A stretch of 64,000 nt of DNA from Gemmatimonas groenlandica (GTDB lineage Bacteria; Gemmatimonadota; Gemmatimonadetes; Gemmatimonadales; Gemmatimonadaceae): positions 310,001 through 374,000 of the forward strand of contig NZ_CP053085.1 of assembly GCF_013004105.1 (NCBI RefSeq), read 5' to 3'. The translations under genes and the position numbers were made by a program. The notes under the pieces were generated by a model. That model saw only the letters and a program-made list of their open reading frames with translations, was not told where the DNA came from and did not search any database. Numbering within the stretch: the stretch's first letter is position 1; every line of letters starts with the position of its first letter. This document shows, one piece after another, positions 11,606-15,997 of the stretch.

Positions 11606-12802
11606 ATGCCTACGTTCACCTATACCGCGCGCGGCACCAACGGCGAGCTCAAATCGGCCACGATCGACGCGCCCAGTCGCGACGACGCGGTCGCCCAGCT
11701 CCGCCGCCAGCGTCTCACGATCATCAAGGTCGACGAGTCGCGATCGACGCCGAAGAAGACCGGTGGGTCGATCGGCATGCGCGACATCGTGATCTTCACG
11801 CGTCAGTTCTCCACCATGATCAACGCCGGCCTGCCGCTCGTGCAGGCACTCGACATTCTGGCGCGCCAGAGCGAGAACAAGGCGCTGGCGGCGGTGGTGC
11901 GCGAAGTGGTGTTCGACGTGGAGTCGGGTAACACGGTCGCCGATGCCATGCGCAAGCATCCGAAGGCGTTCAGCGACCTGTACACCAACATGGTCGCGGC
12001 TGGCGAAGCGGGCGGTATCCTCGATACCATCCTGAACCGCCTCGCGATCTTCATGGAAAAGAACGACGCCCTCGTCCGCAAGGTGAAGGGCGCCATGATC
12101 TATCCCACGGTCATTCTCTGCGTGGCCGGCTTGTGCGTCGTCATTCTGCTCTGGAAGGTCATTCCGGTATTCAGCAGCATGTTCGACAGCGTGGGCATGG
12201 AACTGCCGCTCCCCACGAAGGTCGTGATCGGGTTGTCGCACTTCCTGACGACATACTGGTGGGGCATCCTGATCTCCGGCGCCGGCGCGGCGTTCTTCAC
12301 GAAGCGCTTCTACGCCACGCCCGGTGGTCAGCTGGTCATCGACAAGGCGCTCCTCAAGGTGCCCGTGCTCGGCGACGTGCTCCGCAAGTCGGCCGTGTCA
12401 CGCTTCACCCGTACGCTCGGTACGCTGATCTCGTCCGGCGTCAGCATTCTCGACGGCCTGGAAATCACTGCGCGCACGTCGGGCAACCGCGTGGTGCAGG
12501 ACGCCATCATGGGCAGCCGCGCCAGCATCGCCGGTGGTGACACGATCGCGGGCCCGCTGCAGAAGTCCGAAGTGTTTCCGCCCATGGTGATCAGCATGAT
12601 CGCCGTCGGCGAACAGACCGGCGGCCTGGACGAAATGCTCAGCAAGATCGCCGACTTCTACGATGACGAAGTCGACGCCGCGGTGAGTGCCCTGCTGTCG
12701 CTGCTAGAGCCGGTCATGATCGTGTTCCTCGGCGTCGTGGTGGGCGGTATGATCGTCGCGATGTACCTGCCGATCTTCGACATGGTGAATGCGGTGAAGT
12801 AA
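11606..12802 (+). CDS. pilC: Type IV pilus inner-membrane platform protein PilC (GspF family)
   Basis: 398 residues, standard length. Starts MPTFTYTARGTNGELKSATI, the usual GspF/PilC opening. Two GspF domains are visible: FTRQFSTMINAGLPLVQALDIL near 68-90 and FTRTLGTLISSGVSILDGLEI near 265-290, each followed by helices and a membrane span; the last span is EPVMIVFLGVVVGGMIVAMYLPIF. It forms the inner-membrane platform on which PilB and PilT act. It closes the pil cluster. The left end of the 12812-14009 element begins 10 bp after the stop. Confidence 0.95.
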   Translation: MPTFTYTARGTNGELKSATIDAPSRDDAVAQLRRQRLTIIKVDESRSTPKKTGGSIGMRDIVIFTRQFSTMINAGLPLVQALDILARQSENKALAAVVREVVFDVESGNTVADAMRKHPKAFSDLYTNMVAAGEAGGILDTILNRLAIFMEKNDALVRKVKGAMIYPTVILCVAGLCVVILLWKVIPVFSSMFDSVGMELPLPTKVVIGLSHFLTTYWWGILISGAGAAFFTKRFYATPGGQLVIDKALLKVPVLGDVLRKSAVSRFTRTLGTLISSGVSILDGLEITARTSGNRVVQDAIMGSRASIAGGDTIAGPLQKSEVFPPMVISMIAVGEQTGGLDEMLSKIADFYDDEVDAAVSALLSLLEPVMIVFLGVVVGGMIVAMYLPIFDMVNAVK

Positions 12803-12811
12803 GGGGGGACC

Positions 12812-12858
12812 TGTACGCTCTCACGCTCATCGATACGGTTTCTCACGCTCTATCGACA
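12812..12858 (+). repeat. Left end: 17-bp terminal inverted repeat plus inner CTCACGCT motif
   Basis: Outer copy 12812-12828, identical to the reverse complement of 13993-14009. An inner copy with CTCACGCTCTATCGACA follows at 12842-12858. Confidence 0.8.
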
Positions 12859-12934
12859 ATCTTTCAGGTTGCGTCGACAATCAGATCGAGGGTGAGCGGA
12901 AAGTGGTTGACGATATAGAGATGCTGGATGTGCC

Positions 12935-12963
12935 GAGGGCCTCGGGAAGTCTCCGGGGCCCTC
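12935..12963 (+). terminator. GC-rich hairpin downstream of pilC, inside the element
   Basis: GAGGGCC (12935-12941) pairs with GGCCCTC (12957-12963) around a 15-nt loop, followed by gttcgtttcc. It could stop readthrough from pilC or act as a leader for the 13110 gene. There is no proper U-tract. Confidence 0.45.
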
Positions 12964-13109
12964 GTTCGTTTCCGCAGTTCAGGCGTTTCGGCGCCCGCAA
13001 GGGTGTGCGTGCCACGACACTCCACTATTTCAGCCCCACGCAATTTGAAGAAGCAGTAGCTTGCAGCGCAGGACGCCTGTCTCAACTCGCAAGCTTAAGG
13101 AGGCATCCC

Positions 13110-13643
13110 ATGCCGGTTCGTTCGCGGTTGATGCGGTGCCTTTGCCTGGGAGCGGCCCTGACGACAGGTGCCCTTAACGCGCAGGCCCCCACGCAATCGC
13201 CTAATGAGATTGGCCAGATCATTGATGAGGCCTTACGCACGGTGACTCCGCCCGAGAACCGCCTCACGAGCTACACGGTTGAGGAACGAGGAATCCGCTT
13301 CGATTACGGCCGCACGTTGGCGACGTTCAAGAGGGCGGATAGTCCGGAGGCGCGCGAACAGCTTCGTTTGACTCGCGCCGTCGCCGAGGGGTCAAGAGCG
13401 CTCCTTGAGGATTGCGATCAGATGGGGAGTCAGGCGTGTTCGCGACTGGGACGGTCGGCATATGTCGCTGTCGAGCTCATCTCCGCCTCGGCGACCGAGA
13501 CTGCCGTGTGGGTGCACGTGGAGTGGGCAACTACGTTCCCGAAGCGATCTTACCTCTCCTCAGCTTCCACGGAAGTGTTCCTCACTCGTAGCGGCTCGGG
13601 CCCATGGCGGTTTGCTCGCGTGGGAAGACGCATCGTTTCCTAG
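13110..13643 (+). CDS. Small secreted protein of unknown function, cargo of the inverted-repeat element
   Basis: 177 residues from the ATG at 13110, which has a near-perfect AAGGAGG seven bases upstream. That decides the start over longer in-frame options. An N-terminal signal peptide (MPVRSRLMRC...GALNAQA) points to export. The mature part has two cysteines (EDCDQMGSQACSRLG) that could form a disulphide, and a C-terminal strand-like segment ending GPWRFARVGRRIVS. No family was recognised. It is the only convincing gene between the inverted repeats. Codon use looks less GC-biased than the pil genes. Confidence 0.65.
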   Translation: MPVRSRLMRCLCLGAALTTGALNAQAPTQSPNEIGQIIDEALRTVTPPENRLTSYTVEERGIRFDYGRTLATFKRADSPEAREQLRLTRAVAEGSRALLEDCDQMGSQACSRLGRSAYVAVELISASATETAVWVHVEWATTFPKRSYLSSASTEVFLTRSGSGPWRFARVGRRIVS

Positions 13644-13685
13644 ACGTACAACCGCCTCGCCCTCAGCGTAAATCTGCTGCGACGC

Positions 13686-13922
13686 GTGCGCGACGGGTTG
13701 ATTCGTTTCTGGCGCGACCACCACCTGCCGACTTGGATGCTGATCGCCGGGCTAGCCACGGTGGTGTTCGCGTTCCTTCTGGCATTCCATTCCTGTCCGC
13801 TCCGGGGCGGCGTCTACGGGTTGGGCAGGCCCACGTTCCGCCTCCCCGCGCGTGGTGCTCGAAGCGGGCCTCAACGCGTGGGTTCCGGTAGCGACAAAAT
13901 CTGCGCGAGAATGGCGCACTGA
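13686..13922 (+). CDS. Doubtful small ORF with one membrane segment
   Basis: 78 codons from a GTG. One clear hydrophobic span (WMLIAGLATVVFAFLLAFH) near residues 17-35, then a low-complexity tail. A second frame (13852-14037) continues with protein-like composition, so this may be a gene broken by a frameshift. No ribosome site is visible. It lies inside the inverted-repeat element. Confidence 0.25.
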   Translation: MRDGLIRFWRDHHLPTWMLIAGLATVVFAFLLAFHSCPLRGGVYGLGRPTFRLPARGARSGPQRVGSGSDKICARMAH

Positions 13923-13974
13923 AGTGCGCCGGGTATGGTACTTAGAACGACCTACGACGAAGCTGACGAAACAG

Positions 13975-14009
13975 CGTGAGAGCCTGTCGATAGAGCGTGA
14001 GAGCGTACA
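13975..14009 (-). repeat. Right end: 17-bp terminal inverted repeat plus inner motif
   Basis: Outer copy 13993-14009 is the exact reverse complement of 12812-12828. An inner CGTGAGAG lies at 13975-13982. Confidence 0.8.
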
Positions 14010-14106
14010 TCGCGCCGCAATTGATGTCCGGAACTAGCCGGAGTTGATGTCGCGGACCCGCCAGAAAACGTGTTGCACGGTAAGACGACTAAGAGAAAGT
14101 GATTAA

Positions 14107-14145
14107 CGAAAGCCCCGCCGCGAGAAATCCGCGCCGGGGCTTTCG
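14107..14145. terminator. Strong bidirectional terminator hairpin
   Basis: CGAAAGCCCCG (14107-14117) pairs perfectly with CGGGGCTTTCG (14135-14145). A/T flanks on both sides would serve either strand: the pil side from the left and the AraC gene (ends at 14240) from the right. It lies about 100 bp outside the right end of the element and may be the original pilC terminator. Confidence 0.75.
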
Positions 14146-14239
14146 TAATGACGTCTCACGGGGGATCGTTGGAGGCCTCGGGTACGCAGATGCCGGGCGA
14201 GGTACTCCGGTATCGATTTCCGATCCTCACCGACTCAGG

Positions 14240-15343
14240 TCACTGTCTCATCGACCGGTCAAGCTGCGCCTCACGTCGGAACGCATGCGGCGCCTTGCCT
14301 GTCCACCGCCGGAACGCGCGATGAAACGCACTCGGCTCCGAGAACCCGAGCAGGAACCCCACCTGCCCGGCCGAGGTATGGGGGTTCGCGAGGTGACTGA
14401 TGGCGAGGTCGCGGCGCAGGGCATCGACGAGCTGCTGGAACGTCGTGCCGTCGCTGCGCAGCACGCGCTGCAGGTTGCGCTCGCTCATCGCCAGTTCGCG
14501 CGCGACTTCGGTGAGCGTCGGCACCACGCCCTTCATCCGCGCGGCCACCACCTCCATCACGCGGCGGGATGGGGTTCCGTGGTGCTCGAGGCGTGCGAGC
14601 ACTTCGTCGGCGTGTCGCTCGAAGACGGCGAGCAGCGCCGGGTTCGCCGAGAGGAGCGGTTCGTCGACATCTGCCAGCGGGATCATGAATCGGTACTCGC
14701 TCATGCCGAAGTGCACGGGCGCGCCCAGCACGCGCTCGTAGTCCGCCAACTCCTCGGGTGGTGGCGCCGGTTGCCGGAACCAGACGGCCGATGCGGTGAG
14801 CGGCTTCGCCGTGAGGCGGCCGAGTTCGCGCGCGAGTCCGCCCCACATGGTGTCCATCGCTTCGCGGGGTCGGCGCAACAGGTAATTGTCGGTCCCTTCG
14901 ACGAAGGTGCAGCGGCAGTACGCCGTCGTCGCCTCGCGTACCACCTCGAGGCGCAGTCCGTCGTTGAGCACGCCTACGTAGCGCGAGAGGCGATCGAGGA
15001 CCTGACCCACTGTCGAGCAGCTGAGCACGACGTAGCCGAGGATGTCGAGGCTCCCGGGACTGTAGCGCTCGGCCATGTGGAGGCCGACGGCGGGATCGCC
15101 GGTTTCGCGCACGACGTGAGCCCAAAGGCGTTCGATTCTCGATCCCGCGACGCGCTCATCGCTACCGGGCGGCACGCTGATCTCGATGTCGCACGCCGTC
15201 GCGGCGTCCACGGACGATACGCCACGCGCGTCGAGGTACTGGTACATGTCGGCCACGATCGACGCGGCGATGGTCGTCTCGCGCAACGAGCCTCCAGATG
15301 GGTGATGGGCGCTTGCAGTCAATTTACTGTCGCGCCCGGTCAT
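14240..15343 (-). CDS. AraC-family transcriptional regulator
   Basis: 367 residues from the ATG at 15343 (codons up to 15448 are in frame but would overlap the divergent gene at 15402). The N-terminal half matches the arabinose-binding-like domain of OruR/ArgR-type AraC proteins (DPAVGLHMAERYSPGSLDIL, then YVVLSCSTVGQVLDRL). The C-terminal ~100 residues are a double helix-turn-helix: VARELAMSERNLQRVLRSDG, then VGFLLGFSEPSAFHRAFRRW. Its 5' end faces the outer-membrane gene at 15402 across 58 bp, a likely target promoter. Effector unknown. Confidence 0.9.
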   Translation of the reverse strand: MTGRDSKLTASAHHPSGGSLRETTIAASIVADMYQYLDARGVSSVDAATACDIEISVPPGSDERVAGSRIERLWAHVVRETGDPAVGLHMAERYSPGSLDILGYVVLSCSTVGQVLDRLSRYVGVLNDGLRLEVVREATTAYCRCTFVEGTDNYLLRRPREAMDTMWGGLARELGRLTAKPLTASAVWFRQPAPPPEELADYERVLGAPVHFGMSEYRFMIPLADVDEPLLSANPALLAVFERHADEVLARLEHHGTPSRRVMEVVAARMKGVVPTLTEVARELAMSERNLQRVLRSDGTTFQQLVDALRRDLAISHLANPHTSAGQVGFLLGFSEPSAFHRAFRRWTGKAPHAFRREAQLDRSMRQ

Positions 15344-15401
15344 CGGCGCCCCTGGCCGCGACCCGTACGCTTCGTCCATCACCTCAACGGAGTGTCTCAG
15401 A

Positions 15402-15997
15402 ATGCGTCTGCTGTCCGTGGCCCTGGCTCTCGCCATCGCGATCCCCACCGCAACGCCCCCTTTTTCGGCCCAGGCCGCCCCGACCCCCGCCGCATGTCCG
15501 TCGCGATCGAATCGGACGTGCTTTCGTACGGTCTCAAGGGCTACTCCGGGATCGTCAGCGCCTCTTTCGCCAGCGGACTCCAGATGGCCCTCGGCGCCGG
15601 TCGCTACGACGTGCCCACGTTCCTGCTCGAGGGCGACGCCAACTTCGACACCGCGCGCTGGAAAGCGACCGCCACGTCGATCCAGGTGCTACGCGCCATG
15701 TACCGTTTTCACGGACCAATGAAGAACGGGCTCGCCCTCGGAGCGATCGTTCTGAACCAGAACTGGCGCCTGCGCGGCGAGAAGCTGACCGGCGAGACGA
15801 AGTTCCAGCCGCTCAGCGTAGGCGTGACCGCCGGGTATTACATCCATCTGGGGAAGCACCTGTACCTGTATCCGACGACGGCCTTCACGTACAACACCGT
15901 CGCATCGGGATCGGCCAGTCTTCAGGGCCAGGCCTACCGTGTTGCCAAGTGGGCGCCGAACGGTTCGCTGCACATGGGCTGGGAATGGACGCGATGA
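15402..15997 (+). pseudogene. Small outer-membrane beta-barrel-like protein, apparently split by a -1 frameshift
   Basis: A clean signal peptide (MRLLSVALALAIAIPTATPP...SAQAA) is read from 15402. The protein-like continuation lies one frame back, starting around an ATG at 15494 (MSVAIESDVLSYGLKGYSG) and running to the TGA at 15995. The downstream part (about 167 residues) has alternating amphipathic strands (SASFASGLQMALGAG; SVGVTAGYYIHLGKHLYLY) and ends HMGWEWTR, as small barrels do. The junction falls in C-rich sequence near 15478-15493. Three readings remain: an inactivating indel, a sequencing error, or the 15494 ATG used alone without export. It is divergent from the AraC regulator. Confidence 0.55.

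Follow-up and report, generated by a model that had tools for sequence, protein, structure and literature searches.

What is the 1198-bp unit that lies directly downstream of pilC in this chromosome, and from what kind of element did its ends come? The window, that is, the whole stretch of DNA analysed here, comprises 64 kb (G000:C1:310001-374000) of a host genome that is a single contig of 5.18 Mb. An earlier note had described a perfect inverted repeat of 17 bp, whose tips are TGT/ACA and which spans exactly 1198 bp (12812-14009), and a second motif copy 21-22 bp inward at each end, and both observations are borne out. The arms, 12812-12828 and 13993-14009, are 100% identical, and two copies of TCTCACGCT lie in each end. 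This motif occurs four times in the 64 kb (12819+, 12841+, 13973-, 13994-), always within the element ends, against a mean of 0.74 in shuffled sequence. Order-1 Markov sequences of equal length contain 0.09 inverted repeats of at least 17 bp at a spacing of 100-2000 bp, and the window has none besides the set of the 1198-bp unit. The features to which we refer are the following.

11606..12802, + strand: pilC (T2SSF family), the left neighbour (Pfam T2SSF, 2e-66)
12812..12828, + strand: left 17-bp terminal inverted repeat, TGTACGCTCTCACGCTC (inverted-repeat search)
12812..12882, + strand: left end, R-type, with a TGT tip and repeats from 12819 and 12841 (inverted repeat and model R1, see below)
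12841..12858, + strand: inner left repeat, TCTCACGCTCTATCGACA, the same sequence as in the outer right repeat (sequence comparison)
12932..12966, + strand: terminator-like hairpin within the unit (13-pair stem, -30.3 kcal/mol, z -3.7)
13097..13103, + strand: Shine-Dalgarno AAGGAGG, 6 nt upstream of the ATG (sequence)
13110..13643, + strand: cargo gene for a 177-aa protein with a signal peptide (the only ORF in the unit)
13961..14009, - strand: right end, R-type, with a TGT tip and repeats at 13994-14002 and 13973-13981 (model R1)
13993..14009, - strand: right 17-bp terminal inverted repeat (inverted-repeat search)
14106..14146, + strand: second strong hairpin (-30.3 kcal/mol, z -6.2)

The repeats of the left end read TCTCACGCTC-ATCGATA and then TCTCACGCTCTATCGACA, followed at 12862-12882 by a degenerate third repeat seen in the sequence, while those of the right end read, in the inward direction, TCTCACGCTCTATCGACA and then TCTCACGCTGTTTCGTCA. 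A further inverted repeat of 79% (12841-12879 and 13964-14002) contains a stretch of 18 bp over which the inner left and the outer right repeat match perfectly in inverted orientation. As had been noted earlier, a target duplication is missing (none of 2-12 bp at the flanks GGGGGGACC and TCGCGCCG), and so is a transposase, no remnant of the three genes of the parent family introduced below being found inside the 1198 bp. A doubled TTGATGTC, 23 bp from start to start (window 14021-14051), adjoins the right edge of the unit; with that spacer it is unique within the genus, and other matches differ in the spacer.

Which transposons carry ends of this kind? Searching genomes of the host's family for Mu-transpos_C transposases turned up an element of 3276 bp in G408, a Gemmatimonadetes MAG (locus L119, the same as L138; L139 and L141 are further named members). 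Its ends were located by an inverted-repeat search in which our own unit was not used, and the end on the side that matches the unit reads TGTTAGCTCTCACGTTAATCCACTGACGGTTTCTCACGGTGTTACGAG. The element encodes a DUF6431-like protein (an assignment that falls under Pfam's cut-off), a DDE transposase of the rve/Mu-transpos_C type and an AAA_22 ATPase; the solved structures closest in sequence are TnsB for the transposase (2.8e-10) and MuB for the ATPase (7.2e-7). Alignment of two parent transposases yielded 80 loci in species genomes from many phyla. L and R ends are readable in 47 of these loci, and an exact 5-bp target duplication is present in 8 of the 34 parents with both flanks. Complete parents measure 3.3-3.7 kb and contain DUF6431-like, TnsB/IS481-like DDE and MuB/TnsC-like AAA genes. 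This three-gene family (L138-L217) is widespread, and no name for it was found in the searched literature.

For a model, R1, the only input was the R end, on the AAA side, of each of 20 complete elements from other genomes. In the 64-kb window R1 has two matches only, both at the ends of the unit: 13966-14003 on the right (15.7 bits, E=0.0015 in the window, genome rank 1) and 12818-12856 on the left (13.3 bits, E=0.0083 in the window, genome rank 2). Across the whole 5.18-Mb genome the E-values are weak singly, 0.12 and 0.61, and the strength of the genome-wide result is the pair and not either value; as the two unit ends resemble each other, they are not two independent tests of R1. The nhmmer profiles made from 15 and from 42 family ends place the unit tips first and second in the window, a result that holds with the two closest elements removed, and the left end of the unit scores 20 against the R end of L138/L139, where the best of 200 shuffles against all ends reached 11. 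Profiles of L ends picked out neither tip in the window. Judged by sequence, both ends are R-type and related to the R ends of the DUF6431-like/DDE/AAA transposon family. The R-end majority consensus is TGTTGTCTCtCACaTTATTTCACCGccggtTTCTCACGcTgTTTCG; parents and unit have in common TGT/ACA tips, two repeated sites per R end and a similar second motif, TTCTCACGcTgTTTCG in the family consensus and TCTCACGCTCTATCG in the unit, but the repeats are 24 bp apart in the parents and 22/21 bp apart here. Each parent also carries three genes and has an L end that differs from its R end, and 5-bp target duplications are frequent among the parents; the unit matches family ends of R type on both sides, and has neither one L and one R end, nor the three proteins, nor a 5-bp duplication. 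The suggestion that the ends are of Tn7/Tn402 type is thus upheld by R1 and the end profiles as far as the TnsB/Tn7 superfamily is concerned, but not for Tn7 or Tn402 proper as the source.

What does the unit carry? The earlier description of a cargo with a perfect Shine-Dalgarno and without a known family was accurate: the protein has no fit in Pfam, PHROG or NCBIfam. Its signal peptide is typical, judged by eye, and the protein looks secreted. Among 395 genomes of the phylum, homologs are found only in G006 (41%) and G144 (32%); two cysteines are common to all three proteins, and no similar ends were noticed in the surroundings of the homologs. The AF2 model has a mean pLDDT of 74.6. Foldseek returned no match to it at E<=0.001 and only weak NTF2-like matches, which give a weak hint of a predicted NTF2-like fold, from which no function is inferred.

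Is there a second copy, or a helper? The earlier note had named several copies with different cargo as support, but the element is single-copy in its genome. In its own genome there is no homolog of the parent transposase at E<=1e-25 and no match to PF09299. With a model that included our own ends, strong scores in 179 genomes of the family were confined to the unit's own pair and the R end of the G408 element, all remaining matches lying at or below 20.5 bits; the other 178 genomes therefore hold no similar strong end pair, bar the G408 parent element itself. An exact end pattern gave two other matches in the 395 phylum genomes (L050, L052), both local repeats, and a stricter pattern gave none in 84,980 species genomes. 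In viral contigs, TGTACGCTCTCACGCT had eight chance matches that lack the second motif, and neither the parent transposase nor the cargo protein was found there; the entire unit had no match among plasmids and phages. A fragment of the family about 3 kb from a pilC gene (L217) has no family end and was set aside as a coincidence.

Our preferred interpretation, to which we give about an even chance, makes the unit a passenger cassette that lacks a transposase and resembles a mobile insertion cassette, with two outward-facing R ends of the TnsB/MuB-type family. Directly observed are the inverted repeat, the arrangement of the repeats, the relation to R ends and the absence of a transposase and of further copies; past mobility as one unit, and mobilisation in trans, we infer. 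Movement as one unit, as the earlier note had it, is not supported, given the single copy, the missing target duplication, the lack of an exact empty site, the missing parental transposase and the lack of a similar strong end pair in the other family genomes. Measured against the description of mobile insertion cassettes in PMC3913671, the unit has inverted repeats of a transposon family on both sides, a passenger gene, its one 177-aa ORF, and no transposase. MIC231 and mic-qnrD (PMC3913671) likewise have transposon inverted repeats round a passenger gene and no transposase nearby. However, a target duplication usually accompanies such cassettes, and a helper transposase is known for MIC231; neither was found for the unit. 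The Tn3-derived TIMEs (PMC4133298) are similar in being short end pairs able to mobilise other DNA; they are set apart, by description, by their Tn3 family ends. Several points count against the cassette: the missing target duplication, the single copy and the lack of an exact empty site, a possible pilC terminator inside the unit, which would fit host DNA between two relics, the 22/21-bp spacing against 24 bp in the parents, and the weak single genome-wide E-values.

The pilC neighbourhood bears on these points. The end of pilC aligns in 55 of 61 genomes (our own included), and in every relative the alignment halts at the unit, homology stopping at about 12802-12812; the aligned part reaches query position 202-212, which is window 12801-12811. 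Among relatives with sufficient sequence, the first strong hairpin follows the pilC stop by 13-91 nt in 14 and by 151 nt in one, so the 1.2 kb is absent there. An exact empty pilC junction, which the earlier note had hoped for, is absent from the 16 relatives read: in each of them synteny breaks off past pilC, and the genes beyond the unit are adjacent to pilC in none. The note had also placed the insertion between pilC and a terminator at 14107. The hairpin exists (14106-14146), but an insertion in front of it is doubtful as stated: the strong hairpin at 12932-12966 is nearer to pilC, so the outer one need not be pilC's terminator. The inner hairpin, about 130 nt past the pilC stop and within the range of the relatives' hairpins, may be the real terminator of pilC, and the outer one may serve pilC or the cargo gene. 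Past the second hairpin lies an AraC-type regulator (Arabinose_bd + HTH_18, window 14240-15448, minus strand), which is not adjacent to pilC in the relatives read. In six sister-species loci (L031, L032, L037, L039, L040, L041) the interval from the pilC stop to the terminator contains different end-like motifs, also repeated, several of which begin with TGT, for example a repeated TGTGGGGGCTCACGCCGATTGG; in G029 a further doubled copy lies at another place on that stretch (L263:8961). Insertions may have recurred just past the pilC stop.

Some of these observations feed the main rival, which we regard as a real though minority possibility: the ends are two solo relics around host DNA. Two TnsB/MuB-type copies would have inserted near each other and pointing opposite ways, intramolecular transposition being one possible route, leaving of each only an R end of about 70 bp, with the hairpin and the secreted-protein gene as host sequence between them. 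The pilC-type terminator just within the left end is its main support, joined by the R type of both ends, the lack of a shared target duplication and the other TGT-starting doubled-motif relics at the same spot in sister species. Yet no other family end in the 5.18 Mb has a comparable full-length match, which makes two independent outward-facing relics 1.06 kb apart unlikely, and the outer 17 bp and the 18-bp repeat remain identical.

Could the ends belong to another TGT/ACA group, that is, IS21, IS1202 or Tn7/Tn402 proper, with the likeness to the TnsB/MuB-type family reflecting shared ancestry only? We think this improbable. IS21, IS1202 (PMC10132070) and Tn7 do all have TGT tips, repeated binding sites and 5-bp duplications, and the unit's spacing of 21-22 bp departs from the 24 bp of the parents. 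IS21 has the same layout, with TGT tips and repeated sites about 23 bp apart, together with a 5-bp duplication, but its end sequences are unrelated: a profile of 17 Gemmatimonadota IS21 ends gave no match, pairwise scores are 1-5 against 20, and the genome's own IS21 copies start with TGTCATCACC.../TGTCAACACC..., unrelated to the unit's ends. The unit has neither IS21 end sequence nor istAB; three istB loci lie elsewhere in the genome. Two IS21-family copies of 2063 bp, 96% identical, with TGT ends and doubled motifs, are located at about 1597470-1599530 (L054) and 2887674-2889736 (L055) of G000:C1, the copy near 1.6 Mb having the 5-bp target duplication ACGTT. Tn7 and Tn402 proper, defined by a Mu-transpos_C transposase with tns/tni partners, were rejected, the unit having no transposase. 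The IS1202 family (PMC10132070) shares TGT/ACA and an extra transposase site near each end, and has a TnsB-like transposase and 5-bp target duplications; weighed by description alone, it is set apart as an IS of 1.5 kb with one gene, targeted to dif-like sites. An origin outside transposons, whether as a host regulatory or recombination feature or by chance, could claim the single copy and the unproven movement in its favour, but it is very improbable, as chance does not account for the inverted repeat (0.09 expected) and an independent transposon-end model ranks both ends as the top two in the genome.

How might a passenger cassette with two R ends move? TnsB and IstA bind repeats of about 20 bp at both ends, which are then paired. 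Tn7 derivatives with two right ends transpose, and those with two left ends are not known to. An IstA complex has been solved with two right ends (PMC10122671). The IstA structure and the Tn7 derivatives make two R-type ends compatible with mobility in trans. In a cell with the family's TnsB-like transposase, the protein would bind the repeats of about 21 bp, pair the two ends of the cassette and cut at TGT/ACA, and the cassette with its secreted-protein gene would be inserted by the transposase, with the AAA protein assisting. The form with two R ends may have arisen via recombination or internal loss, which would also account for the missing target duplication. That this is a natural two-right-end cargo cassette movable in trans by the family's proteins, two right ends sufficing for synapsis, is a tentative and somewhat unlikely proposition. 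As its own genome lacks the family's proteins, the cassette would now be stranded; with a secreted-protein gene but no transposase, it looks like a stranded passenger cassette and not an active element.

What are the implications? A transposase-less unit from one genome can be traced to a parent family via about 50 bp of its ends, and it leads to a broadly distributed three-gene transposon family for which the searched literature yielded no description. A cassette with two right ends would offer a natural test case for end pairing by such transposases.
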